From contig NZ_VSLZ01000002.1 of assembly GCF_010747475.1 (NCBI RefSeq), positions 186,001-250,000 of the forward strand: a DNA stretch of 64,000 nt, in the 5' to 3' direction. Of this stretch, positions 28,263-46,804 are shown in pieces; the stretch's first letter is position 1, and each line of letters opens with the position of its first letter. This DNA comes from Halorussus sp. MSC15.2. Lineage in GTDB: Archaea > Halobacteriota > Halobacteria > Halobacteriales > Haladaptataceae. The notes under the pieces were generated by a model that did not search any database, was not told the DNA's origin, and worked only from the letters and a program-made list of their open reading frames with translations. The position numbers and the translations under genes are program-made.

Positions 28263-28286
28263 GGTCTCGTACACCCACCAACTTCA

Positions 28287-28373: not shown

Positions 28374-28805
28374 GTGGAAGTAGTGGACCGCACTTGCTTC
28401 ATTTGTGGCGAGACAAATCAGAATGTGATGGAAGAGCATCACATTTTACCCCGAAGATACGATGGCAGTGATGAGCCTGAAAACTTAGTCACTCTCTGCT
28501 CCAATTGCCACACAGCCATCGAGAAAATATACGGAGACGACTTCTTCGACCGGCTAATTGAAAATATTAAGAACAGGGAGTTCGGTGGCGATGTGACTGA
28601 AGGCGTCGAGTGCTTCGCCGAAGAGTATCTTGGTGAGGATAATGTAAGTGTCCCCAAGGGTACTACGGATGGGAGTCGAGCGGAAATATTTCGAGCATAT
28701 AAGGACTTCTGCGAACGGAGACGGTTCCCTCGCCACACGGTAAGACGCCGTTTCCTTAGAGAGTTAGAGTCCGTTATGGATGGTGAATTTTGGAGGACTG
28801 TTTGA
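28374..28805 (+). CDS. HNH endonuclease-like protein
   Basis: 143 residues. The N-terminal 60 residues form an HNH/ββα-metal domain: CFICGETNQNVMEEHHILPR, then EPENLVTLCSNCHTAIEK, with two CxxC zinc knuckles and the HH, N and H residues of the motif. The C-terminal half is helical and basic, probably DNA-binding. The gene is clearly AT-richer than its surroundings, so it may be a recent guest. Homing or defence nuclease are both possible. Confidence 0.82.
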   Translation: MEVVDRTCFICGETNQNVMEEHHILPRRYDGSDEPENLVTLCSNCHTAIEKIYGDDFFDRLIENIKNREFGGDVTEGVECFAEEYLGEDNVSVPKGTTDGSRAEIFRAYKDFCERRRFPRHTVRRRFLRELESVMDGEFWRTV

Positions 28806-29786: not shown

Positions 29787-29948
29787 ATGGGCAAGGACCC
29801 ACGCGAGCCGCGTCGAACCGACGGCTCTCACGACCGTTTTCAGGAGCATCGTATCCACCGAAGCTACGAGTCCGTCCTCGACACCACCGTCGGCGACCTC
29901 GCACGCGTTGACGACGGCCTCAACGACCTCGTCGGGAGGCAGGCGTGA
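29787..29948 (+). CDS. Small polar protein opening the membrane-module operon
   Basis: 53 residues, highly charged (MGKDPREPRRTDGSHDRFQE), with a helical end. It begins 23 bases after a GGCTGGC-rich stretch and its stop overlaps the GTG of the next gene. No domain recognised. Its place at the head of the coupled series suggests a regulatory or scaffolding role for the module (inference). Confidence 0.55.
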   Translation: MGKDPREPRRTDGSHDRFQEHRIHRSYESVLDTTVGDLARVDDGLNDLVGRQA

Positions 29949-30373
29949 CCGACGCCCCAGTCCGTCTGGCGGACTCAGCCGACGACACGGGCGGCGAGGT
30001 TGCCATCCGGGAGAACGGGCAGGTGACGGCGTTCGCCGCCTCGAATCTCGACGGGCAGATTTCCATCTGTCTCGACAACGAGGACCCCGAAATCGGTGTC
30101 CCGCCGCACGCTGACGTACGGTTCGAGGACCCAACCGCAGACGACGAAGTGCTCGCGGACGGCGGTGTCGCCGACCACGTCGCGGTCACGTCCCGAGGCA
30201 TCGGCCTCGAAGAGGACCTCGCAGTGTTCGCACTCGTCGGGACCATCTTCTCGCTCGTCGGGGGCGGCTACCTCCTTTCGACGGCCAACTCCTTCTCGGG
30301 AATTGTGATGGTCTGTGTCGGCCTAATCCTCACGGCCATCCTCGCCCGCCAACAGGAGGAGTCCCTCGCGTGA
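29945..30373 (+). CDS. Two-helix membrane protein with soluble N-terminus
   Basis: 142 residues from a GTG overlapping the previous stop. About 95 soluble acidic residues (GQISICLDNEDPEIGVPPHA within them) precede two helices (LAVFALVGTIFSLVGGGYLL and FSGIVMVCVGLILTAILA). No named family. It is part of the continuous rightward gene run of the element. Confidence 0.68.
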   Translation: MTDAPVRLADSADDTGGEVAIRENGQVTAFAASNLDGQISICLDNEDPEIGVPPHADVRFEDPTADDEVLADGGVADHVAVTSRGIGLEEDLAVFALVGTIFSLVGGGYLLSTANSFSGIVMVCVGLILTAILARQQEESLA

Positions 30374-30492
30374 CCTCGTTTGGCGTCCTCGATTTCGGCG
30401 GCGAGCGCTGGCATCAGTACGTCCACAACCTGCGCGAGACGTGGCCACCGCGCCCCGAACTGCATCCCGCCGTAGAGGAGGTTTCACCGTGA
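30370..30492 (+). CDS. Small coupled gene (40 aa)
   Basis: 40 residues from a GTG that overlaps the stop of the previous gene by four bases; its own stop overlaps the next GTG the same way. The peptide is aromatic and proline rich (FGVLDFGGERWHQYVHNLRE). The double overlap argues that it is really translated, but no function can be given. Confidence 0.5.
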   Translation: MTSFGVLDFGGERWHQYVHNLRETWPPRPELHPAVEEVSP

Positions 30493-30707
30493 AGCGTTGG
30501 AAGAAGGTCCTGCTGGCAATCATCGCAGGACCGGCGCTGATGACTGTCGGATTCGTGGTCGGCGGTGCGTTGTGGACGGGACTCGTCAACGTTCTCGGAA
30601 GCGTCGCCCCGAGCGTGACCGGCCTGAAGTCGTTCGGTATCGTCCCGGCAGTTCTGGGCGCTCTCGGCCTGCCATATCTGGTCTTCGCAGATGATTCGGA
30701 CGACTGA
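30489..30707 (+). CDS. Small two-helix membrane protein
   Basis: 72 residues from the GTG at 30489. Basic start (MKRWKKVLLAI), a first helix (IAGPALMTVGFVVGGALWTG), a second near the end (FGIVPAVLGALGLPYLVFA), and an acidic tip (DDSDD). A longer frame with an upstream ATG exists, but the GTG matches the four-base overlap seen throughout the module. Confidence 0.6.
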   Translation: MKRWKKVLLAIIAGPALMTVGFVVGGALWTGLVNVLGSVAPSVTGLKSFGIVPAVLGALGLPYLVFADDSDD

Positions 30708-30773
30708 GACTCTCGAAGCTGAATCGACTCGCACCAGCCACGGTGCCGAAACGACCGCAGAAGAACCCAACAC

Positions 30774-32309
30774 ATGAACTTCGGAGATTCACGATTCGCA
30801 TCGGCCTTCATCGCAGTACTGCTCGTCGCGTCGTCGATTACCGGCGTCGCGGGCGTCGCCCTCGCACAAGAGGCCGACGTTCCGTCGCCCATCGACGACC
30901 CGACCGAACTCTACTACGACGCCTCGACCGTCCACAACCCCGAGATTCCCGTGACGGTCACGAAGGACGTCCACCACGTCGGCGACTGGACACCGACCCA
31001 GTACGAGAGCGACTCGGGCGAAGCCCGGACGCTCAACGCCTCGCTCAACCAATCGAAGGCGAACCCCATCGCGCTCGTCGCGACGGACATCAACGCCTCC
31101 GACTTCGGGGAGTTCCCCCGAAAGAACGAGGCCGCCAATTCGGCATCGGCGCTCGATGCCTCCGAGTGGTCGGCCGATTCGTCCGGCATCTCCACCACCG
31201 GAGCGACCTTCAGCGTCCAAGATGCAACGACTGCACCCGGCGTAGATGCCGTCCGAGTTAACACGTCGAGTCTCAGCAGCGGTGACACAGGAGTTGCGAC
31301 GTACAGCAACTTCTCCATTACCAGCGACGAGGCCAAGCGCTTCGCACAGTTCGGCGTGGACATCGACACGCTTGACTCCGGCACGCACGCCGAGGTCCGC
31401 GTCGTTGACGAGGACGGCGACTACAAGGCGTTCGTCATCGACCCGAACAACGCGACCGCCGACGCCGACGTCCTCGCGAACAGCACTGGCGACGGCTACG
31501 TCACCCAGCAGCAGATGGGCGGCATCACGACCGAGGGCACCGGCGACGGCAGTTTCAACAACATCCAATCAGTCGAGGTTCGCGTTACCGACGGCGACCT
31601 TGACGCCAGTTTCTCGCTCATCAACGCCGAGAAGATGGGACAGTACACGTTCGGTGAACAGGCCTACGACGAGGACGGCGACGGCGAGAAGGACGAGACC
31701 CGGACGCTCTACGAGCCGAGCGGTCAGTACCGGATTACCAGCTACGAGTCGCTCCAGAGCAGTTTCTCCGGCGCTGAAGTCCACAACACCGAGCAGTCGC
31801 TCCAGTTCCACGCGTCGAACCTCACGCAGGAGATGGATGCGCAGGTCGAGTTCTCCTCGGCCGGGGACTTCCCGGACTTCGAGCTTATCGCGGACGTCTA
31901 CTACCGGCTTCAGCTCCCGTCGGCGTACGACCTGAGCTATCAGAACGCCGAACTGGCTGACACGGTGGACCTGCCGAGCGGCCGCTACCAGTCGGTTGAG
32001 GTCGCCGAAGGCGTCGGCGACACCGGGTTCCAGAACATCAGTTCGTGGACCTCGGTCAAGAGCAAGTACGGCACGCAGGGCGCGAACGTCACGCTCGACT
32101 CGACGATTCAGCCCGGCCAGCAGATTGCCATCCACTACCAGTACCCCATCACCAGTGCCGAGCAGGGCGACATGACGTCCCAAGGCGGCGTCGCGGGCCA
32201 GTTCCGGAAGGGTGGTGGCGGTAATTGGGCGAGCGACATCCCGATTCTCGGGTCGCTCGTATCCATCGTCGGCGCAATCTTCGGCGGTAAATGGCTGATG
32301 GACCGGTAA
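30774..32309 (+). CDS. Exported surface protein, candidate spike (511 aa)
   Basis: A cleavable signal peptide (FASAFIAVLLVASSITGVAG, then VALAQE) is followed by a large extracellular domain rich in beta strand and about eight N-x-S/T sequons. The C-terminus holds a single hydrophobic helix (IPILGSLVSIVGAIFGGKWL) with a very short basic tail, so it is a type I surface protein. Signal plus ectodomain plus C-terminal anchor is the architecture of pleolipovirus VP4 spikes. I see no sequence motif that proves homology, so spike is an inference from architecture and from the membrane-protein genes that follow. Confidence 0.72.
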   Translation: MNFGDSRFASAFIAVLLVASSITGVAGVALAQEADVPSPIDDPTELYYDASTVHNPEIPVTVTKDVHHVGDWTPTQYESDSGEARTLNASLNQSKANPIALVATDINASDFGEFPRKNEAANSASALDASEWSADSSGISTTGATFSVQDATTAPGVDAVRVNTSSLSSGDTGVATYSNFSITSDEAKRFAQFGVDIDTLDSGTHAEVRVVDEDGDYKAFVIDPNNATADADVLANSTGDGYVTQQQMGGITTEGTGDGSFNNIQSVEVRVTDGDLDASFSLINAEKMGQYTFGEQAYDEDGDGEKDETRTLYEPSGQYRITSYESLQSSFSGAEVHNTEQSLQFHASNLTQEMDAQVEFSSAGDFPDFELIADVYYRLQLPSAYDLSYQNAELADTVDLPSGRYQSVEVAEGVGDTGFQNISSWTSVKSKYGTQGANVTLDSTIQPGQQIAIHYQYPITSAEQGDMTSQGGVAGQFRKGGGGNWASDIPILGSLVSIVGAIFGGKWLMDR

Positions 32310-32322
32310 CGAGGTGTCACAG

Positions 32323-32751
32323 ATGGCATCCTCACAACCGAATCCGATGGACCTCATCAACAGGGCGGAAGGGAAGTCCCTGACCAGCGTCACCAAACAG
32401 GGCATCGGCGGGTGGCTATTCGCGCTCAGCACCAGCGCCATCCTCGGCGTTCAGGCGCTGACCCAACTCTTGTTGATGCCGGTCCGACTCGTCAACAAAA
32501 TCGGCACCAACGTCGTCGAGGGCCTCATCCTGAAGCCGCTGCTCGTGGTCATCACGGGGAGCGAGGCGTCGGCGCGCGGCGTTGACCAGATGGGGCTGTT
32601 CGGTCTCCCAATAGGGACTATCGTCCTACTCGGAACGTTCTCGATTATCGCGCTGTACCTCCGGCAGGACGTGACGTCGGACACGATTCCGGGTACGTTT
32701 ACCGACTACTTCGGAACCGGTGTTGACGAAGACGCGGAGGACGGAGCGTAG
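32323..32751 (+). CDS. Membrane protein of the element module
   Basis: 142 residues from the ATG at 32323 with GAGGTG six bases upstream; a GTG three codons earlier is less likely. About three hydrophobic helices (GGWLFALSTSAILGVQALTQ; LILKPLLVVITGS; LFGLPIGTIVLLGTFSIIAL) and an acidic C-terminus. Directly follows the candidate spike gene. Small multi-helix proteins next to the spike are typical for membrane-vesicle viruses (VP3 type), but sequence homology is not evident by eye. Confidence 0.68.
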   Translation: MASSQPNPMDLINRAEGKSLTSVTKQGIGGWLFALSTSAILGVQALTQLLLMPVRLVNKIGTNVVEGLILKPLLVVITGSEASARGVDQMGLFGLPIGTIVLLGTFSIIALYLRQDVTSDTIPGTFTDYFGTGVDEDAEDGA

Positions 32752-32794
32752 CCATGCTCGGTGCGCGTCCCCCACTGGCCCGGAGGTGGTCGGC

Positions 32795-33184
32795 GTGAGT
32801 CCACCGGGACCAGATTTCGAGCAGGGCAGCGGAGGCGGCGGCTCGCGGGACGCGTTGATTACGTCGCTACTCACTCGGGACAATCACATCAAGTGGGGCG
32901 CGCTCGGTGTGGCGCTAACCGGGAGTACCGTCTACGCGATTTTCATTGGCGTCGTTCGGGGTGTCATCTCGGTCGGCGCGGCAATCGACCTGTTCGTCGG
33001 CGGTCTCGTCGGAACCATCGAGAGACAGACGACCCGGTACTTCGACTCGTTCACGCGACAACTCGCGGCGGCGTGGACGTTCGAGATTGACCTCGGTCTG
33101 TTCCAGCTTCCGTTCAACCTCGTGATGGTGCTGGTGGCGTTCACCATGCTCGCAATCGGGGTGAGTCAATTCACCGATGGTTAA
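32795..33184 (+). CDS. Membrane protein of the element module
   Basis: 129 residues from a GTG at 32795 preceded by GGAGGTGG. The N-terminus is polar and glycine rich (PPGPDFEQGSGGGGSRDAL), then come a helix near residues 34-58 (WGALGVALTGSTVYAIFIGV) and a C-terminal helix (LPFNLVMVLVAFTMLAIGV). A 14-codon ORF (32754-32798) ends in the same overlapped GTGA and may couple its translation. It overlaps the next gene by eight bases. Confidence 0.66.
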   Translation: MSPPGPDFEQGSGGGGSRDALITSLLTRDNHIKWGALGVALTGSTVYAIFIGVVRGVISVGAAIDLFVGGLVGTIERQTTRYFDSFTRQLAAAWTFEIDLGLFQLPFNLVMVLVAFTMLAIGVSQFTDG

Positions 33185-33710
33185 GATAGTCGAGAAGGTG
33201 ACGAAAGTCACCGTCCCCGACTGGGTTAGTGAAAATGCGAACGCACTGAAAGCGTTAGCCACCCTCTCCGCGGGTGGTATCTCGTTCTACGCTAATCCCC
33301 TCGGCTTTCTTCGGGCGAAGATTGCGCCGATGGTGGTAGGTGGCATCCTCGACATGTTCACGCCGATAATTGAGGGTATCCTGTTCCTGTTCGTCGGGTC
33401 GGAAGTCGGGTATCCGGGGTACCCGCCTGCGACGGGTGCCACGTACGGGGCGACCGACCTGTTGCCCCTCGTCGTGGACATCACCGTCAGTCCGATTCTC
33501 ACACTGATGCGGATTGGCGTGGGCGGACTCATCAACATCAACCAAGCGGTCGTCCCGTCGGGGACGCCGTTCGCGGCGCTGGTCGTGTACGCGCTGCTGG
33601 TGGCCGAGACGCTGATTCTGGCGGAGTTGGCGATACGAGGGCTTCGGGCGGTGCTGGACTCGGTTCCAGTCACGTCGGGCATCGAGACGTTCCTGTTTGG
33701 AGGCGGATAG
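33177..33710 (+). CDS. Multi-pass membrane protein of the element module
   Basis: 177 residues with four or five hydrophobic stretches (for example MVVGGILDMFTPIIEGILFL and ALVVYALLVAETLILAELAI) and a glycine/tyrosine/proline loop (GYPGYPPATGATYG). No catalytic motif. Its start lies inside the end of the preceding gene. Function unknown; likely an envelope component. Confidence 0.68.
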   Translation: MVKIVEKVTKVTVPDWVSENANALKALATLSAGGISFYANPLGFLRAKIAPMVVGGILDMFTPIIEGILFLFVGSEVGYPGYPPATGATYGATDLLPLVVDITVSPILTLMRIGVGGLININQAVVPSGTPFAALVVYALLVAETLILAELAIRGLRAVLDSVPVTSGIETFLFGGG

Positions 33711-33714
33711 AGAT

Positions 33715-34017
33715 ATGAAAGGACTCAACCGCGTTCGTGAGGCGCTTGCGCACCCGCTGGCGGCGGCATCGACAGTTGCGGGAGTATTCGGTATCGCGCT
33801 CCATCCGGGCGTGCTGAAGGCGTTCGTGCTGGCGTTGTGGCAATCGGCACCGACGCTGTTCACCATCAGTTCCATCGGAGCGTTCACGCTTCCGAAGATT
33901 CTCCCGAAACTGGAGTTGCTGAAGCCGGTGTTCATGGCGGCGCTGGCCGTCTCGGGCGTGCTGTACCTCGCCCGTCTCGGGAAGCGGACGTACCAGAACT
34001 TCGACAACGAACTATGA
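33715..34017 (+). CDS. Membrane protein of the element module
   Basis: 100 residues from the ATG at 33715, behind GGAGG at 33699-33703. Two or three hydrophobic segments (LAAASTVAGVFGIALHPGVL; LFTISSIGAFTLPKI; PVFMAALAVSGVLYLARLG) and a polar end. Its stop overlaps the start of a 23-residue ORF. Confidence 0.66.
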   Translation: MKGLNRVREALAHPLAAASTVAGVFGIALHPGVLKAFVLALWQSAPTLFTISSIGAFTLPKILPKLELLKPVFMAALAVSGVLYLARLGKRTYQNFDNEL

Positions 34018-34085
34018 GACGAAACACACGCACAGACGGCTGTATCGCACGCAAAACGAAGAGTAGGGAGGTACGCCATGCCTAA
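34014..34085 (+). CDS. Tiny coupled ORF (23 aa)
   Basis: 23 residues, basic (MRRNTRTDGCIARKTKSREV), whose ATGA start overlaps the previous stop and whose end overlaps the next gene start; a GGAGG lies just before that next start. It may be a real peptide or simply a device that carries ribosomes from one gene to the next. Confidence 0.4.
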   Translation: MRRNTRTDGCIARKTKSREVRHA

Positions 34086-34509
34086 GCTGGCGTTCCTCGC
34101 GGACAACTGGACGTGGCTCGTCGGCGCACTGCTCGCGGCGCTGTTCACGTACTGGTGGTGGGACGAGCGCAACGAACACGAGCATCAAAGTCCCGGCGAG
34201 ACTGTGGACCGCGTCACTTCACGGGCCGAATCCGCGACCGGTGGGGCACTGTCGGGCTTCCGGGCGCTGCTCGTCGGTCTCGCGTCCATCGGCATGACCA
34301 TCGCGGTCGAGTTCCTGCAACTCGCAGGAGACTTGAACGAACTCCTCGGTGGCGTCCCGTTCATCGTGGGCTACCTGATTTACGGCGGACTGTCGTTCGT
34401 CGGCATCGAGTGGGACATTTCACCGCAGGTTCTCGGGTTCGCGTTCATCCTGATTCTGCTCGTGGCGGCGATGGCGAAGTTCGGCCAGCCGGGAGGTGAC
34501 CGGGCGTGA
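34078..34509 (+). CDS. Multi-pass membrane protein of the element module
   Basis: 143 residues. A first helix (WTWLVGALLAALFTYWWW) is followed by a charged loop (DERNEHEHQSPGETVDRVTS) and three further helices ending in FAFILILLVAAMAKFG. Overlaps both neighbours by four to eight bases. No family recognised. Confidence 0.68.
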   Translation: MPKLAFLADNWTWLVGALLAALFTYWWWDERNEHEHQSPGETVDRVTSRAESATGGALSGFRALLVGLASIGMTIAVEFLQLAGDLNELLGGVPFIVGYLIYGGLSFVGIEWDISPQVLGFAFILILLVAAMAKFGQPGGDRA

Positions 34510-34949
34510 CCATGCTCGACCTCGACGTGCGCGACCGGCTTCCCGAACGGGCCGACCGCGCCCTCGACGTTGCTGAGGTCGTAGTCGGAGTGGTCCTCAA
34601 CGTCGCGCTGTACTTACTCGGTGCTGCGACGACGTTCGGCTACGCGACGGGCGAACTGTCGCTGTCAGCAGCAACGTGGATTTCCGTCGGCTTCGTCGGC
34701 ATAATGACGGTGTTCTACGTCGCTGGTCGAATTCGCGGAGACGACGAACAGGAAGCGGCGGCACTTGTGACAGGGGGCGAGTTCCTCGTCTACGGTGCGG
34801 TCGGCGTCGGAATCGCGCTCCTACCATCGCCCGCGAGCGAGGTCCTGTGGTGGGCCGGTGTCGTGCTGGCCGGACTGTTCTACGTCCGCTACGAGTGGGT
34901 GACGGCCCGTCTCGGGTTCGAGGGGACTGGCGAGGAGGTGGCCGCCTGA
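34506..34949 (+). CDS. Four-helix membrane protein of the element module
   Basis: 147 residues from a GTG (34506); an ATG two codons later also fits. A polar start (LDLDVRDRLPERADRALD) precedes four hydrophobic helices (VVVGVVLNVALYLLGAATTF; ATWISVGFVGIMTVFYVAG; FLVYGAVGVGIALLP; VLWWAGVVLAGLFYV). The fold, four helices with a short cytoplasmic start, is like VP3-type proteins of pleolipoviruses in outline only. Confidence 0.67.
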   Translation: MTMLDLDVRDRLPERADRALDVAEVVVGVVLNVALYLLGAATTFGYATGELSLSAATWISVGFVGIMTVFYVAGRIRGDDEQEAAALVTGGEFLVYGAVGVGIALLPSPASEVLWWAGVVLAGLFYVRYEWVTARLGFEGTGEEVAA

Positions 34950-35080
34950 TGGTGTTCAAATCACTCGTGACCGGCGGGAAAGCGCTGGCCGCGACGGTCG
35001 GCGGCTTCTTCGCCGGATTGTTCGGGTGGAGCGCGTCTCAGGAATCTTCGCGGGAGTGTTGGACGCGGTGGGTATCGTGA
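34949..35080 (+). CDS. Small glycine-rich protein (43 aa)
   Basis: 43 residues with one amphipathic or weakly hydrophobic helix (LAATVGGFFAGLFGW). Its ATG overlaps the preceding stop (TGATG) and its own stop overlaps the next GTG. Supported mainly by this coupling. Confidence 0.5.
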   Translation: MVFKSLVTGGKALAATVGGFFAGLFGWSASQESSRECWTRWVS

Positions 35081-35160
35081 CGCCAGCGAGCGCGTGGTTG
35101 ACGCTCTCACCGTTCGTCGGGCTGGTTGTCGCCGGGACCGCAGTAACGAGGGTGACGTAG
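35077..35160 (+). CDS. Tiny single-helix protein (27 aa)
   Basis: 27 residues, almost all hydrophobic (SPFVGLVVAGTAV), starting at a GTG overlapped with the previous stop and ending one base before the next start. It may be a membrane microprotein; the evidence is position and hydrophobicity only. Confidence 0.42.
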   Translation: MTPASAWLTLSPFVGLVVAGTAVTRVT

Positions 35161-35161
35161 C

Positions 35162-36853
35162 GTGCGCCGCGCCACAGCGCTCCTGCTCGTCGTGCTGTTC
35201 GTCCTGCCGACGGTCACGGGTGTCGGTGTTTTCGCAGCGAGTGACGCCCAGAACCAGACGTCGAGTGACGAGTACACGCTCGACGAACTCCAAGAGAATG
35301 GGAAGCGCTACGAGAGCGCCCCGCCGTCGATGCGGTTCCTCGGCGATTACGGCAGTGCAACCGTCCGATACACGCCGGTCTCCCCCGGCAAAAACGGGTG
35401 GAAGTACCTCGAACCGGGGACGACGATTCACTCGAACGAAGTGGCACTTCGAGCGGTTCGGCTCGCGCCATCGGACGAAATCGACGAGTCACTGAACGTC
35501 ACGGTCGTCGCGTGGCAGAAGGGCGAAAAGGAGGTCTCGACGGGGAACGGTACGGTCACGCGCCCGACGGCAACGAACGTCTCGGTCTACCACCACCAAG
35601 TCTCGCTCGGACGTGGCTACGACCTCGCGAACATCTCGTTACCCGCCCACTACGACGAGTCGTACCAGATTACGATGTGGGTCGAGGAGAACCCGGACGC
35701 GCGCTGGCGGTTCACCCACCAGAGCGTTGAGTCCAAGAAGGGACTGCCGTTTCCGGCGACATGGGGCGGCTACTGGCAGTTCACGACGACGAATCTGCTA
35801 ATCTGGATTCTGGCCGCGACCGGTATCGTAGCGATTGCCGTTCCGGCGTCCATCCGACAGACGGGTCGCGGGCCGAACATGGGCCTGCTGTTCTGGGCCA
35901 TCGTCCTCGGTCTCGGAAGCGCGCTCATCGGCGGTGGTGCGTACGTCTGGACGGCGAGTCTGCTGACCGCCGCGCCCCCAGTAGCAGCGTTCCTCATCGC
36001 GGGGGTAATCGGCATCGTGATGCTGGAGACGATGGAGTACGGCGTCTACCGCGTCGCGCTCATCCGGCTGTTCACCGAGGAGACGAAGAACCCGCGCGGC
36101 GACCTCGCAAACTCCGCGGAAGGTGGCGAGTTCGAGGTCGTCACGCTGGCCCAGACCGAGGAGGGACCGAAGGCGATTCGGGACGGTATCCGGCCGTGGA
36201 TTGCCCGCTTGTTCAGCGGTGGGTCGCCGCTCTACGGTCTCGACCGCCTCGAACTGGAGTTCGACCTCGGAACGCCCGACGTCTCGCTGACCTCGTCGCC
36301 CGCGGACAAGCTCATCTTCGTGGACGAGGACCCCGAGCAACTCATCGACTACGAACCCGAGACGCTCTCGTTCGAGCTACCGTTGACCGAGTTTGACCCC
36401 GAGACCGGCGAGGAACGCTGGAGTTGGACCGGCGCTGTGACGGTAGCGTTCTACGCGGTCGTCAGTGGCGGCCTCGCATTCTTCGCACTCCAGAAATCGG
36501 GTATCGGCGGCGCTCGAACTGGTGCGCTCGCCTTCGCTGGGGTCGCACTCTATGCACTGTTCACGACTGCCGAAGCTGGACGAGCAGTATTCGTCCCCGC
36601 CGTGGGGTGCGCTCAAGACGCAACTGCGACAGCGATGTACCGAGAGGCCGAAATCGACGGCTACGAGACGCTGGAGGCGGCGTTGAATGCCTTGGTCGAG
36701 GAGCGCAACAGCAGCGACGAACTGCTGGACACGCTCGAAGAGATGGACGCCGAGAGCGTCGTCAAAGAGGCGTCGAGCCGAGACACGTCGCCCGGCGAGT
36801 TCGTCGGCGGGTCGGACTCGCCGACCACGACGTCGGCGGGAGGTGACGACTGA
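35162..36853 (+). CDS. Large membrane protein with ectodomain and cytoplasmic domains (563 aa)
   Basis: A signal peptide (ATALLLVVLFVLPTVTGVGV) leads into an extracellular domain of roughly 190 residues with sequons (NQTSS, NVTVV, NVSVY). Three helices follow (from about residue 214, LLIWILAATGIVAIAVPA), then a cytoplasmic domain (about 300-425), two further helices (AVTVAFYAVVSGGLAFFAL and a second), and a coiled, acidic tail. The gene ends at the overlapped start of the next. I recognise no family. Topology suggests a link between surface and the cytoplasmic ATPase two genes downstream. Confidence 0.75.
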   Translation: MRRATALLLVVLFVLPTVTGVGVFAASDAQNQTSSDEYTLDELQENGKRYESAPPSMRFLGDYGSATVRYTPVSPGKNGWKYLEPGTTIHSNEVALRAVRLAPSDEIDESLNVTVVAWQKGEKEVSTGNGTVTRPTATNVSVYHHQVSLGRGYDLANISLPAHYDESYQITMWVEENPDARWRFTHQSVESKKGLPFPATWGGYWQFTTTNLLIWILAATGIVAIAVPASIRQTGRGPNMGLLFWAIVLGLGSALIGGGAYVWTASLLTAAPPVAAFLIAGVIGIVMLETMEYGVYRVALIRLFTEETKNPRGDLANSAEGGEFEVVTLAQTEEGPKAIRDGIRPWIARLFSGGSPLYGLDRLELEFDLGTPDVSLTSSPADKLIFVDEDPEQLIDYEPETLSFELPLTEFDPETGEERWSWTGAVTVAFYAVVSGGLAFFALQKSGIGGARTGALAFAGVALYALFTTAEAGRAVFVPAVGCAQDATATAMYREAEIDGYETLEAALNALVEERNSSDELLDTLEEMDAESVVKEASSRDTSPGEFVGGSDSPTTTSAGGDD

Positions 36854-37863
36854 TGTCGGGTATCCCGCAGATGGGCCGCGACGACCTCGCTGAGGACAGC
36901 GATGCGGCCGACCTCGTAGACCAAGCGCTTGCGAGCCACGACGGGGGTTCGGAGACGCTCGCTGCGGACGCGGCCGAGGGCGTGACCGAGACGGTCCGCC
37001 AGATTCAGGCGTTCGTCGAGGGCGACGTCGATGTCGAGCAGGTCGAGACCGCGAGCGACGAGGTCGCGGAGACCGTCCTGCCGGAGTTCGAGCCGGTCGA
37101 TTCCGACGCTGATGATGAACTCCAGCCGACGCGTCCGGCGTTGGCGAACCTGAACGAACAGCAACTGGAGGCGCTCCGGGAGTTCCGCGACGAGGGCGTC
37201 GAACATCGTCCAGAACTCCTACGGTGGCTGTTACGGCTTCAGTTCCGGACGCTCGGGCGTCTACCGGACTACTGGTACCATCACGTCGCGACGGACCCGA
37301 CCGCCTTAGCATGCGTGCTGACAGGCGAGAACCGCGGCGCGTACGGTGAGAAGGATGGGACGGACGTGACTCCGCAGGAGGCGTGGGCCGCACGTCGGCG
37401 TCTCGTGGCGAAGTACCTGCGGCCAGCGTGTCGCGACGCGTTCCGGACGCTCCGACCGAAGGCGACGGAGTACCTCGACGACGACAAGAACCCCGACAAG
37501 ATGGCAGCGCTGGCGATGCGCCCAGCACTGGACGAACACTACCAGCGGACCGAGCGCGCACTCGCACAGTTCCATCGCGGGTTCGAGAACGAGGACGACC
37601 TCGACGAGTGGCTTCACCACCTCGACCTCGCGACGTTCGGTGCTATCAAGGCCGTCGAATCGGAGTTCGACTACGTTCTCCTCACCGACGAGAGCGCGCC
37701 CGACCTCTACCTCTCGGACGCCGAGCGGTACGTCGAGGCGCGCGAGCGTATCATGGCCCGGTTCCTGCTCCCGGCGACCAACGTCGCCGTACGCGAACTT
37801 GCGGAGCGGGCCGGTGAATCGGACGACGAAACCTCCGACCATTCGGGAGGTGTTGACGTATGA
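36853..37863 (+). CDS. Soluble helical protein upstream of the ATPase
   Basis: 336 residues, no signal or membrane helix. An acidic start (DLAEDSDAADLVDQALASHD) is followed by a mainly helical body with NEQQLEALREFRDEGVEHRP and RRRLVAKYLRPACRDAFRTL. It overlaps both the 563-residue membrane protein and the ATPase, so equimolar production is likely. Probably a cytoplasmic adaptor between these two (inference). No known domain seen. Confidence 0.72.
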   Translation: MSGIPQMGRDDLAEDSDAADLVDQALASHDGGSETLAADAAEGVTETVRQIQAFVEGDVDVEQVETASDEVAETVLPEFEPVDSDADDELQPTRPALANLNEQQLEALREFRDEGVEHRPELLRWLLRLQFRTLGRLPDYWYHHVATDPTALACVLTGENRGAYGEKDGTDVTPQEAWAARRRLVAKYLRPACRDAFRTLRPKATEYLDDDKNPDKMAALAMRPALDEHYQRTERALAQFHRGFENEDDLDEWLHHLDLATFGAIKAVESEFDYVLLTDESAPDLYLSDAERYVEARERIMARFLLPATNVAVRELAERAGESDDETSDHSGGVDV

Positions 37864-39158
37864 GTAAGACTGACCAGTCACTACAGACGACGCCACGGGA
37901 AATCGTGGACGCCTTCGAGGCCGAGACGCGGACTCGGACGTTCCGCGACGTATCCTACGGCGTCTACGACGCAGGGAGCATCAGACGAGACCACGGCCTC
38001 CGGCCGTTCTGGAAACAACTCTACGAGACCGACGAGGCCGCCAGAATCGACACGAGCGCGGACGCCGTGCAGTATCCCGGCGTCGTGCCGGACTGTCTCA
38101 TCCACCTCCGGCGCGACGAACGCGAGCTACTCAAGCAGGACCAACCGGACCTCGCGGGCTATCCCGAGACACGACGGCACGTCCTGCGGTGGCTCGCAGC
38201 AGACGACCGTGCGCTCTCGAAGATGAGCATCGGCGGGACCGACTTCCTCGGCACCGGCCAACCCGGTTCGGGCAAATCGACGCTGGCGTGCGACCTCGCG
38301 CGACAGGTCCTCGGCATCAACCCCGAGGAGGCGGTCGTGTGGCGCGGAACGCCGTCACGGGCGGAATGGACGCCGCTGGCGAAGTGGACGAAGCTCCTGC
38401 TCCCGGCGGGCGTCGAGTCTACGGTGGCGGTCCAGCCGCCACAGCACGGCGCTGGGGGCTTCGAACTCGACGTGACGGAGGTCGCCCGCGAGGTCGAGCG
38501 CTACGAAGACGTCTTCGACCTGCTGGAGCGATTCGAGCCGGGGAAGTTCCACGTCGTCTACCCCGACCCCGAAGGCAAGGGCGTTGAGGACGTGTTCGCT
38601 CAGTCGGCACGGACGGATAGCTTCGAGTGGGTGAACACGGCGTCGATGGACGACTCTTCGGAGTACGACACGCCGACACCGCTGTCGCACTGGTGGTTCG
38701 CGTTCGTTGTCGCCATCGTCGATTTCATGGGACCGGAGTTCCTGACGCTGTTCCTCGACGAAATCGGCGACCTACTCCCGCAGGCCGCGCGGTCCGGGCC
38801 GAAGAACCACAACTGGTACGAGAAGATAGAGGCGTTCCGCGACGCGCTCGTGGACGCTCGCAAGAACAACAAGTCGATTTTCAAGTTCGGCCACAACGAG
38901 GCCGACGTCCATAGCCTCGTTCGACGGAAGCTCCGGTGGCGAATCACGATGCCGGGCTGGCCGAACCCGACGGAAGGCGACAAAGTCGTCGGCTTTCAGG
39001 ACGCGCCGATGACCGAGCAGCACACCAAGTACTTCAACGTGGGCAAGGGGCTGTGGTGGACGGCCCTCCACTGGTCGGAGTTCTACTGGAGTGACGTGCC
39101 GAAGCCGACCGTCGCGAAGGTCGCTGTCGAACTCTCGAACCGAGGTGGTTCGGCGTGA
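37860..39158 (+). CDS. P-loop ATPase of the HerA/FtsK-like or viral packaging type
   Basis: 432 residues. Walker A GTGQPGSGKST at 131-141 and Walker B LTLFLDEIGDLL with DE at 300-301 are complete. Between them is WHTG-free, mixed sequence with a long insertion. The C-terminal half (FKFGHNEADVHSLVRRKLRW) could hold sensor residues. It is the only ATPase in the module, sitting after the membrane proteins, which is where pleolipoviruses place their VP8-type ATPase and conjugative elements their coupling protein. It probably moves DNA or drives particle assembly. The exact subfamily needs a profile search. Confidence 0.82.
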   Translation: MSKTDQSLQTTPREIVDAFEAETRTRTFRDVSYGVYDAGSIRRDHGLRPFWKQLYETDEAARIDTSADAVQYPGVVPDCLIHLRRDERELLKQDQPDLAGYPETRRHVLRWLAADDRALSKMSIGGTDFLGTGQPGSGKSTLACDLARQVLGINPEEAVVWRGTPSRAEWTPLAKWTKLLLPAGVESTVAVQPPQHGAGGFELDVTEVAREVERYEDVFDLLERFEPGKFHVVYPDPEGKGVEDVFAQSARTDSFEWVNTASMDDSSEYDTPTPLSHWWFAFVVAIVDFMGPEFLTLFLDEIGDLLPQAARSGPKNHNWYEKIEAFRDALVDARKNNKSIFKFGHNEADVHSLVRRKLRWRITMPGWPNPTEGDKVVGFQDAPMTEQHTKYFNVGKGLWWTALHWSEFYWSDVPKPTVAKVAVELSNRGGSA

Positions 39159-39346
39159 GAACTGGGGCCGAACTGGCTCGTCGCGGCGAAGATTTCGATT
39201 CGCCGACACCAGACGCACGCGCGTGTTACGAATCGAGTAGTACAACCCCCCGTGGGTGGGTGCGCGCCGTTGCTCCACAGCGCTCGGCCGCAGCACTGCG
39301 CGGGCGTGGTCGCGCCTCAACCGAGGAGGTGACGACCGATGCGTGA
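39155..39346 (+). CDS. Doubtful small ORF between ATPase and surface protein
   Basis: 63 residues from a GTG overlapping the ATPase stop, ending inside the start of the 996-residue gene. Composition is low-complexity and arginine/alanine rich, and no domain is visible. The overlaps at both ends resemble those of genuine genes in this operon, which is the only support. Confidence 0.35.
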   Translation: MRTGAELARRGEDFDSPTPDARACYESSSTTPRGWVRAVAPQRSAAALRGRGRASTEEVTTDA

Positions 39347-42329
39347 GCGTCCTCGGTCACTCGCTCTCGTCGCGCTGCTGCTCGTCTCGACGTTGGCTGG
39401 CGTCGTACCGACGGCAACTGCTGGCGGTCCGCCCAGCGGGATGGTCGCAGTCAGTGAAACCAACATCAACGACATTCGGCCGAGCGGCGTGGCGACGAAC
39501 GTCTCGGAAGCGGACCTCGACGGTGCAGTGTACGTGAGTGGACACGCCTCGACGACGGAGGTGGACCTCGTTACGGACGCCCAAGCGGACGAGATTGCTA
39601 AGGGCGCATCACCCTCGGACGTCGCGCAAGAGGCAGTCTGCTCGTCGCCCGCGGCCGGGAAGAATCCGCAGTTCGATTGTTCACGAGACGAGTCGATGTC
39701 GTTGGTCATCTCTGACGACGTTCATCACGATGGCCGTCGCGTGGCAGTCCGCGCTGGCGTCATCAAGGATGCGTTCGGGTACGTTCCGGAGTATCTCGCT
39801 ATTGCGAACAACGAGACGGGCGAGACGTGGCAGTCGCCCGTGACGGTGCGCGACGGATGGATTGTCGCCGACGTCAAGCACTTCTCGTCGAACACGGTCA
39901 GCTTCGAGGGGACGGTCTCGATACAGGCGACACCGGCGCAGGACGGCGACCAGTTCAACTACCAGTTGTCTGACCTCGACGCAGTCTCGAACTTCTCTGT
40001 CGAACTCACAGGGAGTACGGCGACGGAATGGGATAACGAGTCTGCTACGGGCATCTCGGCAAACGGCGGCTCAATGAGCGTGGCGGTCGGTGGCGACCTC
40101 TCGCCGGGCGGCCCGTCAGAGACCGACAACCCGACGCTCTCGGTCACTGGTCGTACGGAGTGGGATAACGAGTTTTCGACAAAATCCGATGAGGCCGCGA
40201 TTATCGCGGATTCAAAGACTGGTATCGAGGTCGGGTTTATCAACCCGCCAGAGACCGTGACCGGAATCAGCATTAACACGTCGCGAAACGACGGCGGGCC
40301 GTATCATGTGCTGGCCAAAGTTGGTGAGCTACCCGACGGGACCAAAAACGAGGGGACGGTCGTGCATTCTGAGTCGTCCTCGACCGACCTGATGAACGTC
40401 ACGTTTGACCAACCTGTCGAGACGAATGGCCAGAATCTGACGTTAGAGTTCCAGACAGACGGGACAAATTACGTCGTGTCCGAACTGGACAATTCTGTGA
40501 ATTACGAGCTGTTTAACACCCGGAAATCGGCGTTTAACGTGACTGTGCTAGGGAATCCACGAGAGGTCTCGGCAACCGTCGACGACGGGACCACTGCGTC
40601 GTTCGGGAATCTCTCGGGCGGCCAGACAAAGACTCAAGAGTTAGATATCTCGACATCGGCAAGTTCGCTCTCATTCGATGGCTCCGGGATGGTCGACGCG
40701 ACGCTCCGGATGCGAGAACGCCAGCGAACGGAGAGTCCGACGCTCAACGTGAACGGTGATGTTATCGCGGATTACTCCGGGACATTGGCTGACAGTGAGA
40801 CGGTGTCGTTCATGCCGAACGAGTCGGTTATTCAATCGGGAACGAACACGGTGAACGTCACGGTCGGTTCCTCGGTCGGGGCGGATGCGCCAACACCAGA
40901 GGTTGACGTAGCATACCAGCATGATGCGAAATCAACGTTCTCGGTTGATTACTCGGCTGAGAAGTTGAGTGTGCGCTACGAGGTCGGTCGAAACTTCTCG
41001 TCCTCACAATCCGATATCTCGATGACTATCCCGTTCGACAACACGGTGTACGGGATGAGAGACGTCGAGAAACGAGTGAACGGCGGAAGCTGGACCGCAG
41101 TCGCCTCGTCGAACTATCGTATCACCGACGCGAACGAACTCGTCGCCGACATCGGCTCGGTCTCGAAAGGTGACACCGTCGAGGTACGCGCGAACGGTTC
41201 GCGCGTCGAGACTTACAACATGAGCATCACTGTCGAACGAGCGACCGCGAAAGGGAACAAACTCGACTCGAAACTCTCCATCGACTCCATCAGCGAAAAC
41301 GGTCACTTGAGGTTCGCATCGTCGGGCGAGTCGAAGAAAATCGTGTACCCCATGAACGAATCGTGGGATTCGGCCGACGGATACGCTACCATCCAATCCA
41401 ACGGTCAGCAGGACCTCTCCCTGCCGAACGCGCCAGAAGGAGGTACCTTCCGAGTCCAAACGATTCCGGTGAAGGCGACCCCAAATCAAGGCGACGTCGA
41501 GGTCTCGGTCTCGGAACCACGCCAAGAGGAACCGCAGTTCTACGTTCGGCCGGGCGATGCGCCCAGCGACACGGTGGAGTTCACCTATCTGAACGCGAAA
41601 CCGGATACGAAGTACCTGCTCTACTCGAAATCGAACGGAGTAGTTCGGGACTCGGGCACAGCGAACTCGCCAGTCACGTTGACCGACGACGACAGCGCCG
41701 AGCGACTCGTGTTCCGGGTTGACGACAGCGGAAGCTCCGGGCCGTCGAACAGTGACGGATGGACCGATGGCTTCCCTCCACCGGGCCAGTTCGCCAAGCA
41801 ATCGGCCAGCGGTGGGAATCTCCCGGTGGTCCTGCTCGTCTCAGGTCTCGGCATTGCAGTGCTGTGGTACGCTCGGAGTCGATATCGAGGAGCGAGCGGC
41901 GTCACGGGCCTGTTCGGCCGGGCGCTCTCCTCGAACGTGGTCCTCGGAAGTCTCGTCGTCGCAGTGGTCGGCGTCGGGGGCGCGGTCGGTGGCGTTTCGC
42001 TCCCGCCGGGCGCTGGTCTCCTGCTGCTGGTGACGGGCGTCCCGCTGGCGACGTACCTCGGCCTCCGTCGGACCGGCCAGTACTCGCACGTAGCATTCGG
42101 CGCAGTGACGGCCGTCGCGCTCATCCTCGGACTCCAACTGCTCGGCGGGAACGTCGTCAGTTCGGTGCTGTCGAACCTCGGCCCGTCGATGCCTATCATC
42201 GCCATCGGTGGTCTCTACGTCGTCTACAAGGCAGTCAAGGCCTACCGACGAGGGAAGACCGTGAAACTCAGCGTTCGAGGATTCCGCCGCGGGTCCTCGA
42301 ACGACGAGGACGACAAAGGAGGGCCGTAG
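39339..42329 (+). CDS. Very large exported surface protein with C-terminal membrane domain (996 aa)
   Basis: A signal peptide (LALVALLLVSTLAGVVPTATA) opens a beta-rich ectodomain of about 790 residues with many sequons, including NVSEAD, NETGE and NTSRN. Two cysteines occur near the start (VCSSPA and DCSRDE). A serine/glycine/proline hinge (SGSSGPSNSDG) is followed by about four helices, starting with LPVVLLVSGLGIAVLWYA, and a basic tail. The stretch at about 40180-41000 is noticeably AT-richer, so the ectodomain may be a mosaic, as is common in receptor-binding proteins. It is the second surface protein of the module and a candidate for host attachment or fusion. Confidence 0.75.
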   Translation: MRERPRSLALVALLLVSTLAGVVPTATAGGPPSGMVAVSETNINDIRPSGVATNVSEADLDGAVYVSGHASTTEVDLVTDAQADEIAKGASPSDVAQEAVCSSPAAGKNPQFDCSRDESMSLVISDDVHHDGRRVAVRAGVIKDAFGYVPEYLAIANNETGETWQSPVTVRDGWIVADVKHFSSNTVSFEGTVSIQATPAQDGDQFNYQLSDLDAVSNFSVELTGSTATEWDNESATGISANGGSMSVAVGGDLSPGGPSETDNPTLSVTGRTEWDNEFSTKSDEAAIIADSKTGIEVGFINPPETVTGISINTSRNDGGPYHVLAKVGELPDGTKNEGTVVHSESSSTDLMNVTFDQPVETNGQNLTLEFQTDGTNYVVSELDNSVNYELFNTRKSAFNVTVLGNPREVSATVDDGTTASFGNLSGGQTKTQELDISTSASSLSFDGSGMVDATLRMRERQRTESPTLNVNGDVIADYSGTLADSETVSFMPNESVIQSGTNTVNVTVGSSVGADAPTPEVDVAYQHDAKSTFSVDYSAEKLSVRYEVGRNFSSSQSDISMTIPFDNTVYGMRDVEKRVNGGSWTAVASSNYRITDANELVADIGSVSKGDTVEVRANGSRVETYNMSITVERATAKGNKLDSKLSIDSISENGHLRFASSGESKKIVYPMNESWDSADGYATIQSNGQQDLSLPNAPEGGTFRVQTIPVKATPNQGDVEVSVSEPRQEEPQFYVRPGDAPSDTVEFTYLNAKPDTKYLLYSKSNGVVRDSGTANSPVTLTDDDSAERLVFRVDDSGSSGPSNSDGWTDGFPPPGQFAKQSASGGNLPVVLLVSGLGIAVLWYARSRYRGASGVTGLFGRALSSNVVLGSLVVAVVGVGGAVGGVSLPPGAGLLLLVTGVPLATYLGLRRTGQYSHVAFGAVTAVALILGLQLLGGNVVSSVLSNLGPSMPIIAIGGLYVVYKAVKAYRRGKTVKLSVRGFRRGSSNDEDDKGGP

Positions 42330-42333
42330 GACG

Positions 42334-42621
42334 ATGCCGACACCGTTGGTCATCGGAGACGTCCTCTCGATGCTGGGACTCCCCCACGTCGTGGTGGTCG
42401 CGGTGATGGCAGTCGCGGCGTTCAGTCACGGACAGGACGTGGTTCACGCGGTCTCGTTCGGACTGACGATGGCGCGACTCGGGACGTGGGTCGCGGTCGT
42501 TGTTCTCGCGCTGGGTAGTGCGGCGGTCCTCGGACTGATTCCGGGCGTCGAGGCGAGCGTGAATTTCGGAACGCTCGGCAGTGGACTCGACCGATTGGGC
42601 GACCTGCTCCCGATAATATGA
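42334..42621 (+). CDS. Small membrane protein of the element module
   Basis: 95 residues with two or three hydrophobic segments (LPHVVVVAVMAVAAFSHG; LGTWVAVVVLALGSAAVLGL) and no catalytic residues. It begins four bases after the large surface protein stop and overlaps the start of a 31-residue ORF. Likely envelope or assembly component. Confidence 0.66.
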   Translation: MPTPLVIGDVLSMLGLPHVVVVAVMAVAAFSHGQDVVHAVSFGLTMARLGTWVAVVVLALGSAAVLGLIPGVEASVNFGTLGSGLDRLGDLLPII

Positions 42622-42713
42622 CGCCGGAATTCGCAGTTAGTAGCGTCCTACTGGTCATCTGGGCGTGTTCGACGGTGGCTACGAGGTTCGAGGACCGCCT
42701 ACGCTCAATCTAG
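42618..42713 (+). CDS. Tiny single-helix membrane protein (31 aa), last of the run
   Basis: 31 residues with one helix (FAVSSVLLVIWACSTVA) and a charged end (TRFEDRLRSI). Its ATGA overlaps the preceding stop. It closes the rightward gene series. Confidence 0.5.
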   Translation: MTPEFAVSSVLLVIWACSTVATRFEDRLRSI

Positions 42714-42927: not shown

Positions 42928-43869
42928 TTATTCGTTCAAGGCATCACGGGCGTTTGCTAATGAGCTACGGACGAACGCAACCATCGAATCTGCGGTCGCG
43001 GCGGGCTCTTTGACCTCGTCTTTCCATGTATTGAAAAACCGCATTGGGTCAAGTTTGAGAATGCCTCTATAGACCTCACGCCGAGCAGTGAAGCCACTGG
43101 GAAGTGGACGGACCGACTCGTAGCCCTCCTGAAGCGCGTCTCGGAGTTCATCGTCTTCCTCAGGGGCGTCGTACCAGTCGAAGAATTCCCGCTCGGCCCG
43201 ACAGAGGTCGAACTCCCCGCTCCCGACTAGTGAGAACTCCCAGTCAAGGACTCCAACGACTCGTTCCCCGTCGAACAGGACGTTCGCTGGCTGGTAGTCA
43301 CCGTGAATGAGGTCCGGGCCATCTGCATTATTGAGAGCGTCTTGGTGAGTCCGGACGAATTTACGGACGGATTGCCCGGCCTCCTCGAACTGCGTCCCTG
43401 CGAGGTCGTCACACCATCTCGACACAAGTGTTTCGAGCATTTCACTCCACGTTCCTTTCGCATCAAGGTCGAGTTGGCCATCTTGAGCGCAGAGGTAGCC
43501 GTGGGACGCGAAGTCTGCCTCTGTGTGAAGCCGCGCTAGCATTGCACCTGCATTGCGGAGTCGCCGTTCTCGAAGGTCTCGCACTTCGTTGCTTCTATAC
43601 GGAGTGCCGTTAATCCATTCGAAGAGTGCATAGTCATCCTCCGCGGCAAGTAGAGCCGGTGTCGGCACTGTTGTTTGTTCTCCGACATACTGGGCCACGA
43701 ATACACGCTGGCCGATATGTGCGTTGTTTTCCCGAGCTACCTTGCAGACGGCGGTCTGACCGTCAACAATCACTTCGTAAACCCCGTTCGGACCCCGTGA
43801 GGGGAGTTCCCGGCGGATTTCGTAATCATCAGTGTATGTGGCAAGCGCGTCACCCACGTCTGCTACCAT
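42928..43869 (-). CDS. APH/choline kinase-family phosphotransferase
   Basis: 313 residues. Kinase signs are the nucleotide-lysine region TAVCKVARE, the catalytic loop LIHGDYQPANVLFDG with its HGD and N residues, and the metal-binding VVGVLDWEFS. Members phosphorylate small molecules such as aminoglycosides, choline or sugars; the substrate cannot be told from sequence. It is AT-richer than chromosomal genes and lies alone, convergent to the structural operon, so it looks like cargo that may benefit the host. Aminoglycosides generally do not affect archaeal ribosomes strongly, so a resistance role is doubtful. Confidence 0.85.
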   Translation of the reverse strand: MVADVGDALATYTDDYEIRRELPSRGPNGVYEVIVDGQTAVCKVARENNAHIGQRVFVAQYVGEQTTVPTPALLAAEDDYALFEWINGTPYRSNEVRDLRERRLRNAGAMLARLHTEADFASHGYLCAQDGQLDLDAKGTWSEMLETLVSRWCDDLAGTQFEEAGQSVRKFVRTHQDALNNADGPDLIHGDYQPANVLFDGERVVGVLDWEFSLVGSGEFDLCRAEREFFDWYDAPEEDDELRDALQEGYESVRPLPSGFTARREVYRGILKLDPMRFFNTWKDEVKEPAATADSMVAFVRSSLANARDALNE

Positions 43870-44609
43870 CTTATAAACTATGTTCTGCTCTTGTCAGTTA
43901 GATGTTACGATAGATGCGCACCACCCATTGCGCAAAACGTCGAGTCGTTCACGAGTGATAGACTACATAAAGGACTCGTATTACCAACTACTGTTAAGAG
44001 GATGTAGAAGTATACTCTGAATAACAGAAGCAATCCACCAATAATTCCTGTCATAAGACCCAACCGAAAAGGAGGTAATCTAATTCTCTTCCTTCGATTA
44101 CACACCCCTTTTCTCTATTTGCCTCGACGACTGCGAGAGACTCGCGCGCGCCACGAGCGCGCACTACCGTAGAGGCGATAGGGGTCGGATTTTCCGCGAG
44201 GCCCAGACTGTGTCCACCCTCGTTTCATACGTTCTCCCGTCTGGTTTCGGGCGGTTCGACACGTGCGGTGAGGGCCGGGCCGTTCTGGCCCGGCCCGCAT
44301 TGAGTTAGCCGCCTACGGGCAACTACCGTAGGGGTGTTGGGGGTTGGCGGACCCCCAGCCCGGACCCACAGATGCCGGATAGAGGAACTGTAGATGGTGA
44401 TGACGGCGGAGACGGTGGGGTGTACGGTGCGCGAGAACTGGCCGGAACTGGCGACCGCGGCGTCGAGGCAGCGATGAAAACGTGCTAAAACCATATGCAA
44501 AATAGAAATTTGTCGAACGATAAACGAATCTCTCCGTCCTCGCTCGAAATAAAGTTGAAAAAGAGAGTGTTGCCACTACGTGCCGACGTGAACCCGGTCC
44601 GAAAGGGCG
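43870..44609. other. Non-coding zone with several perfect hairpins
   Basis: No convincing gene. A weak 66-residue minus-strand ORF (43905-44105) with a hydrophobic segment is possible. Perfect inverted repeats are: 44146-44151 with 44157-44162 (6 pairs), 44272-44281 with 44287-44296 (10 pairs, GGGCCGGGCC arm), and 44312-44318 with 44326-44332 (7 pairs). The ten-mer ACTACCGTAG is directly repeated at 44163 and 44322. AT-rich blocks flank the structured part. It directly follows the 3' end of the putative replication gene, so it may be a replication origin or a structured RNA. Confidence 0.45.
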
Positions 44610-46469: not shown

Positions 46470-46804
46470 GTTGCCTCCGCGAGCGCTGGCTCAGGCGTCG
46501 CGACCGGCACGGTCTCGCCACCGAGGCGGGCCTCGGCCGTCGTGAAGTGGTCGGGTGCGGCTTCCTCGGGTGCTGGGAGGACTACATCGACGCGGCGGCA
46601 CTCGCAGGACCACCCATAGACCGGAAGGTCCTCGGTGATACGCGTCTCCAACAGGTCGGCCGGAACGGTCGGCGTTCCGATGGTGCTGGTCACGTCGGCC
46701 CCGCACAGCGGACAGAACGCGGCGTCGAGGTGGGCGTCGTAGTCGGCGATGAGGACGATAGTCCGCGGTTCGACGAGGTCGCTCGCAGACTCCCGCACCG
46801 TCAC
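46466..46804 (-). CDS. Zinc-binding protein (112 aa)
   Basis: 112 residues. FCPLCGADVTST gives one CxxC and GWSCECRRVD a second CxC, together a probable zinc site. No membrane segment. Its ends overlap both neighbours by four bases. Accessory factor of the element operon, role unknown. Confidence 0.7.
   Translation of the reverse strand: MTVRESASDLVEPRTIVLIADYDAHLDAAFCPLCGADVTSTIGTPTVPADLLETRITEDLPVYGWSCECRRVDVVLPAPEEAAPDHFTTAEARLGGETVPVATPEPALAEAT

Follow-up and report, generated by a model that had tools for sequence, protein, structure and literature searches.

What does a run of closely packed, co-directional genes for surface proteins, small membrane proteins and a single ATPase build in a haloarchaeon? 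The question is raised by a 64,000-nucleotide stretch of Halorussus sp. MSC15.2 DNA (the window, to whose numbering all coordinates refer), for which a preliminary description, made from the sequence alone, had proposed a particle or vesicle that carries the element between cells.

The element and its integration and replication backbone

The block is almost certainly part of an integrated mobile element, as the preliminary description had supposed. Two exact 15-nt direct repeats, the only exact copies within the window (23697-23711 and 48679-48693), enclose 24,982 bp (25.0 kb); the left copy adjoins an integrase gene and the right copy is the 3' end of tRNA-Ala(GGC). In genomes of the same genus, a host gene homologous to 21053-21340 lies close to tRNA-Ala with no element DNA between them, and in one of these (G399) 164 bp separate the tRNA from the gene that adjoins the element in the window; therefore, an element-free site exists. 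A sister element, with an ATPase 99% identical, occupies the same site in Halorussus aquaticus XZYJ18. The features of the element around the module are as follows:

23697..23711, no strand: attL, 15-nt direct repeat AGTGGACTCGTCGGG (exact-copy count in the window)
23790..24827, - strand: tyrosine integrase of SNJ2 type, 345 aa (Phage_integrase; SNJ2 integrase homology)
25673..26011, - strand: PadR-like recombination accessory protein (PadR; SNJ2 gp3 homology)
27606..28274, - strand: serine resolvase, cargo (Resolvase, E=4e-33)
28374..28805, + strand: HNH endonuclease, cargo (HNH, E=1.6e-9)
42928..43869, - strand: APH-family phosphotransferase, probable cargo (APH, E=1.5e-20)
44110..44360, - strand: strong hairpins downstream of Rep, candidate replication origin (stem-loops of -14 to -20)
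44610..46469, - strand: Rep-Arvir-type replication initiator, 619 aa (hhalign; catalytic residues)
46466..48414, - strand: small Rep-operon genes for Zn-finger/CxxC and DUF488 proteins (ORFs and Pfam)
48679..48693, no strand: attR, repeat overlapping the tRNA-Ala 3' end (ARAGORN and repeat search)
48680..48752, - strand: tRNA-Ala (GGC), integration site (ARAGORN)

These limits leave outside the element 2.3 kb to the left of attL that are also variable among genomes. A low-GC stretch (46%; 21400-23500) between an aIF-1A-like gene and attL differs among genomes of the genus and is perhaps the remnant of another insertion at the same tRNA. In two further genomes of the genus (L081 and L084; G024 and G173), DNA related to window positions 47229-48815 lies beside this tRNA-Ala, which points to related elements at the site. 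Also outside the element, large genes followed by short pilin-like genes at 8618-18165 suggest a type IV pilus-like cluster.

Over 347 aa the integrase shares 47% of its residues with the SNJ2 integrase (E=4e-110), and the PadR-like protein shares 45% with gp3, the recombination accessory protein of SNJ2 (E=2e-26). The 619-aa protein aligns with betapleolipovirus Reps over 308 columns (hhalign 95.8%; shuffled null <1%), with its catalytic Y339 and E356 placed on SNJ2 Y283 and E303. Judged by profile and residues, it is a divergent, distantly linked member of Rep-Arvir (DUF7845), the family whose role as initiator of rolling-circle replication in SNJ2 has been established by experiment (PMC13107129). 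Pfam misses this Rep, which falls below the cut-off for PF25227 (DUF7845); those of related loci match the same family (L012, 3e-100; L031, 2e-97; L018, 8e-12). The 15-nt origin motif of SNJ2 occurs downstream of Rep in several of these loci, exactly in L031 (~185 nt downstream), with one mismatch in L011 and with two mismatches each in L012 and L013, and is absent from the window. Taken together, the integrase, accessory protein and Rep homologies mark the backbone of the element as that of the betapleolipovirus SNJ2.

The gene order may carry this likeness further. A gene for a 90-aa CxxC protein in the Rep operon faces attR. As read from the map, closure of the circle would bring the leftward integrase operon to a position immediately upstream of this gene and of the Rep operon, an arrangement reported from SNJ2 (PMC13107129) and from other pleolipoproviruses (PMC7911831). 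The APH-family protein (aminoglycoside/homoserine-kinase-like) sits between the module and Rep, has no homologue in the related loci and is probably cargo.

Composition and distribution of the module

Where pleolipoviruses carry their structural block, the element carries a 12.7-kb module of ~16 genes, all on the + strand, from 29945 to 42621 (17 with a 56-aa ORF at 29778), fewer than the 21 or so previously counted. Overlap by a few bases, described as the rule for these genes, was found at eight of the 15 junctions (by 1-32 nt); three more lie within 4 nt, and four are gaps of 60-76 nt.

29945..30373, + strand: small protein with two helices, 142 aa, module start (homologues in L010, L021 and L023)
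30441..30707, + strand: small two-helix protein, 88 aa (hydropathy scan)
30774..32309, + strand: surface protein 1, 511 aa (homologues in 18 loci; AF2)
32314..32751, + strand: small membrane protein, 145 aa, paralogue a (iterated profile, two genes per locus)
32720..33184, + strand: small membrane protein, 154 aa, paralogue b (profile family common with the 145-aa protein)
33177..33710, + strand: small membrane protein, 177 aa, paralogue c (iterated profiles, hydropathy)
33697..34017, + strand: small membrane protein, 106 aa (17 homologues)
34078..34509, + strand: small membrane protein, 143 aa (15 homologues)
34506..34949, + strand: small membrane protein, 147 aa (60% identity to sister-element counterpart)
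35026..35160, + strand: one-helix ORF, 44 aa, 70 aa in the sister element (ORF list, hydropathy)
35162..36853, + strand: large membrane protein, 563 aa (homologues in 70/394 haloarchaeal genomes)
36853..37863, + strand: soluble helical protein, 336 aa (internal duplication, hhalign)
37860..39158, + strand: P-loop ATPase, 432 aa, assigned to the PAV1 ORF375/pTN2 family (profile matches to pP12-1 and pTN2)
39155..39346, + strand: 63-aa ORF (90% identity to sister-element counterpart)
39339..42329, + strand: surface protein 2, adhesin-like, 996 aa (identity profile; homologues in >20 loci)
42334..42621, + strand: small membrane protein, 95 aa, module end (iterated profiles, hydropathy)

The five large proteins have exactly the lengths first given, all on the + strand, and their described natures were borne out by hydropathy and motifs. 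The 511-aa protein has a signal peptide and a C-terminal anchor; the 996-aa protein, likewise exported, has a signal peptide, a beta-rich body and four C-terminal helices; the 563-aa protein combines an N-terminal helix or signal peptide, an ectodomain, four internal helices and a cytoplasmic domain. The 336-aa protein is soluble and helical, with no membrane-spanning helix in the hydropathy scan, and the 432-aa protein carries a P-loop (GQPGSGKST) and a Walker B motif (LFLDE). Nine small proteins have two or three helices each, in line with the earlier figure of at least eight.

Apart from the P-loop of the 432-aa protein, which matches one unnamed PHROG (3e-18), the module proteins are essentially unrecognised by Pfam and PHROGs. 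As first reported, no terminase, portal or capsid family was matched in these collections; the module holds no recognisable capsid, MCP or fusogen, the small proteins match no solved structure, and the 88-aa protein gave no homologue outside the window.

Searched with the ATPase, 84,980 genomes yielded 22 loci; blocks homologous to the module and syntenic with it were seen at more than 20 independent loci, far beyond chance. In nearly all of them the order is the same: a 511-aa type protein, two or three paralogous small membrane proteins, two further small ones, then the 563-aa type, the 336-aa type, the ATPase, the 996-aa type and often a leftward Rep. Among 394 Halobacteria species genomes (E<=1e-5), the ATPase family is found in 72, the 563-aa family in 70 and the 511-aa family in 64, so that the module is present in about one in six, or roughly 18%, of haloarchaeal species (70/394). 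When four weak ATPase matches are removed, the 563-aa gene lies on the same strand at most 8 kb upstream of the ATPase in 79 of 87 places, joined by the 511-aa gene in 64. The distribution is sporadic (23 of 86 genera), and beyond Halobacteria a few distant ATPase matches came from a sample of the phylum. The ATPase has no relative in 2.9 million IMG/VR contigs, 50,697 phage records hold no homologue, and no description of the module was found in the open-access literature (subscription papers and supplements lying beyond this scope).

The set varies in places. In pNG300 and its relatives two shorter proteins replace the 511-aa protein; in L011-L014 the 996-aa homologue is undetectable and other large membrane-associated ORFs stand at that place; the Haloarcula plasmids pNG400, pNG100 and the GH36 plasmid (L003, L008 and L001) carry the ATPase alone of the module genes. 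On a 163-kb Halosegnis marinus plasmid (L002, 12916-34000) a type B DNA polymerase and Cdc6, not the usual Rep, accompany the module, which thus has another replication backbone there. One locus filed as Rhizobium sp. S152 (L018, NZ_JAUDRZ010000015.1) has a layout nearly identical to that of Halobaculum litoreum L015/L016, and this haloarchaeal element in a Rhizobium assembly is almost certainly contamination.

This distribution bears on two alternatives. A host surface, secretion or defence operon taken up as cargo would explain the surface proteins and the ATPase; it is disfavoured, and highly improbable in our view, by the sporadic distribution, the recurrent company of Rep and integrase genes and the lack of any match to a housekeeping family, including the secretion and S-layer systems that the preliminary description had named as refuting its proposal; its other refuting condition, a block not conserved in other elements, did not arise either. 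The other is a plasmid-vesicle element working like pR1SE, in which protein-studded vesicles carry the DNA and there is no true virion. The precedent exists in haloarchaea (PMC10818511), the module is rich in membrane proteins and has no capsid, and some relatives are plasmid-borne (Halosegnis 163 kb, pNG300, pNYT2). However, the backbone matches a virus, SNJ2, and the pR1SE-type gene set first suggested was not recovered: with pHTUR05, chosen from its gene order as proxy for pR1SE, no module profile matched at E<1e-3, and the module has neither the S8 protease that belongs to the apHPV core (ORFs 6-9 and 17-25) nor a VirB4-type ATPase. We regard this reading as unlikely.

The ATPase and the surface proteins

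Compared through its pTN2 and pP12-1 members, the PAV1 ORF375/pTN2 family is the one to which the 432-aa ATPase belongs. Its profile, which itself includes both sequences, matches pP12-1 at 2e-90 and pTN2 at 3e-89, and independent tblastn searches against the two gave 1e-9 and 7e-7; the family is otherwise reported from the virus PAV1 and the plasmids pTN2 and pP12-1 (PMC3543421). The ATPase is also probably related to the pleolipovirus NTPase (VP8), with which hhalign gave a single match of 89.8% over 73 columns that extends outside the P-loop; the shuffled null reached at most 0.2%, and unrelated P-loop proteins reached up to 80.6% (an ABC protein), which is modestly lower. Both proteins contain the motif RK..GH....H (RKYNGALIYIGHDESSIHPLLWR in SNJ2, RKNNKSIFKFGHNEADVHSLVRR in the window). 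In the preceding 336-aa protein a ~105-aa domain is duplicated in tandem, and the two halves match each other at hhalign 99.4% (E=5e-21).

For the 511-aa protein, AF2 gave a model (pLDDT 80, pTM 0.74) with a beta-rich ectodomain and a carbohydrate-binding-like jelly roll. Its best PDB fold match is the turret of HFTV1 (Haloferax tailed virus 1; E=5e-5), followed by carbohydrate-binding modules, all with low TM-scores and therefore with only a domain in common. A VP4-type spike identity was rejected, as comparison with seven VP4s gave hhalign 35.5% on 21 columns and VP4 structures were absent from the 50 best PDB folds. The 996-aa protein reached 3.8% against VP4, and its AF2 model (pLDDT 64, pTM 0.36) is too poor for fold comparison.

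VP3 and VP4 are the defining proteins of pleolipoviruses (PMC10599561, PMC10919331), and VP3 was rejected among the small proteins, the best hhalign value between nine module families and six VP3s being 0.64%. A similarity of the 563-aa protein to HRPV-1 ORF6 (E=3e-4 in a small set) was not upheld by profile comparison (33% on 32 columns; 1.4% against ORF7); the protein has no PDB match, and the 336-aa protein scored 0.05% against ORF7. The pleolipovirus link originally drawn thus has the support of homology in the integrase, accessory protein and Rep, and probably in the ATPase, and lacks it for VP4 and VP3. Membership of Pleolipoviridae proper, with a block that has diverged strongly, would account for the betapleolipovirus type of these backbone genes, the probable NTPase relation and the layout of block and leftward Rep, which HGPV-1 shares; the lack of VP3, VP4, ORF6 and ORF7 support and a module about twice as large as a pleolipovirus block (its larger size had already been remarked in the preliminary description) make it very improbable.

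The surface proteins differ in how they have diverged from the sister element. Identity is 95-99% for the 511-, 563-, 336- and 432-aa proteins and 67% for the 996-aa protein, in which it is 26-64% at residues 200-550 and mostly 86-100% at 1-150 and 600-996; in broad terms, both ends of this protein compare with its nearest relative at 94-100% and the middle at 26-50%. An exchangeable region on a conserved base is as expected of a receptor-binding adhesin, and the protein could equally serve cell-cell adhesion. Its C-terminal helices prompted a comparison with the fusexin Fsx1, which gave no profile or fold match and, given the weak model, is not a strong exclusion. A contact-dependent apparatus for transfer or mating, either resembling conjugation or working by fusion in the way proposed for fusexin elements, would fit the large adhesins and membrane proteins, and DNA exchange by cell fusion has been proposed for haloarchaea (PMC7838353). 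Against it, no VirB4/TraG/HerA protein, relaxase or conjugation family was recognised, and with the Fsx1 result we consider it improbable.

Proposed cycle and comparison with known systems

From the backbone and the gene types we propose, with a probability of about 0.68, that the module builds a membrane-bound extracellular particle, that of a temperate, probably non-lytic virus or of a plasmid-vesicle group; this reading draws on the analogy with SNJ2 and LSV-48N, both on the same backbone. The SNJ2-type integrase and accessory protein would excise the 25.0-kb element, as provirus or integrative plasmid, from tRNA-Ala, circularisation would join the leftward integrase and Rep operons in the SNJ2-like manner, and the Rep-Arvir protein would initiate rolling-circle replication. 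The module proteins would collect in the cell membrane, where the 563-aa protein may form the envelope scaffold together with the three paralogues among the small membrane proteins, while the ATPase with the duplicated 336-aa protein may power DNA loading or particle budding. Attachment to the next host would fall to two proteins, the carbohydrate-binding-like one of 511 aa and the 996-aa adhesin, whose middle is variable. We infer the release of a particle or vesicle, as we do particle formation, DNA loading, non-lytic exit and receptor binding.

A spindle-shaped virus with the same cycle, in which the paralogous small membrane proteins would be the capsid and the 996-aa protein the tail adhesin, is a tentative reading and a sub-case of the particle proposed here, so that their weights overlap. 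PAV1, a spindle virus, has the same ATPase family and a Rep-Arvir protein (PMC3543421, PMC13107129), and the spindle-shaped LSV-48N (24.9 kb) has an integrase and a Rep of the same families, and one of its exported proteins (904 aa) carries three helices at its C-terminus; yet the small proteins lack sequence similarity to His1 or LSV-48N structural proteins or to solved capsids.

The findings suggest a previously undescribed particle group, compatible with a pleomorphic as with a spindle shape and with a virus as with a vesicle. We hold it to be about an even bet that the module marks a family of archaeal membrane-bound viruses not yet described, whose particle would be a third type on the Rep-Arvir and SNJ2-type-integrase backbone, with the module in ~18% of haloarchaeal species. 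Should the particle be real, haloarchaea would harbour a very common group of viruses or vesicles that has escaped notice because its structural genes are all unlike known ones and it is missing from viral databases; one integration-replication backbone would have carried at least three unrelated particle modules, and PAV1-type and pleolipovirus-type ATPases would become linked. The carriers are about 70 sampled species genomes, several in culturable genera.

Among known systems, the pR1SE/apHPV plasmid vesicles share the idea of a membrane-protein-rich transfer module in haloarchaea and differ in gene set, as judged through pHTUR05. Halfvol2, of a Haloferax volcanii provirus group, integrates at tRNA-Ala, encodes many TM proteins and has been suggested to be lipid-enveloped (PMC7911831), but its length is just 12.3 kb, close to that of the module by itself. 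PAV1 and the pTN2-like Thermococcales plasmids have the ORF375-type ATPase, and PAV1, from the literature, the Rep-Arvir protein; in pTN2 and pP12-1, however, the protein encoded before the ATPase is no relative of the 336-aa protein, for which a PAV1 ORF137-like identity was rejected on this ground, and the other module genes are unmatched.

Two further parallels lie on the backbone itself, which elsewhere bears pleomorphic (SNJ2) and lemon-shaped (LSV-48N; PMC12714723) particles. LSV-48N, a Haloferax virus, differs in structural proteins without sequence homology and has no ORF375-type ATPase (its Orc1/Cdc6-like CDS0006, considered as the same ATPase, matches in the Walker A region alone), but it shares the Rep-Arvir and SNJ2-type integrase families, a ~25-kb genome, a large exported protein with C-terminal helices and many membrane proteins. 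Whereas homologues of betapleolipovirus VP3, VP4, ORF6 and ORF7 are undetected and the 12.7-kb module has two other surface proteins and about nine small membrane proteins, SNJ2 and its relatives share with the element the integrase, the accessory protein, the Rep-Arvir initiator, tRNA integration, the operon closed by circularisation, a rightward structural block followed by a leftward Rep and, probably, a related NTPase.
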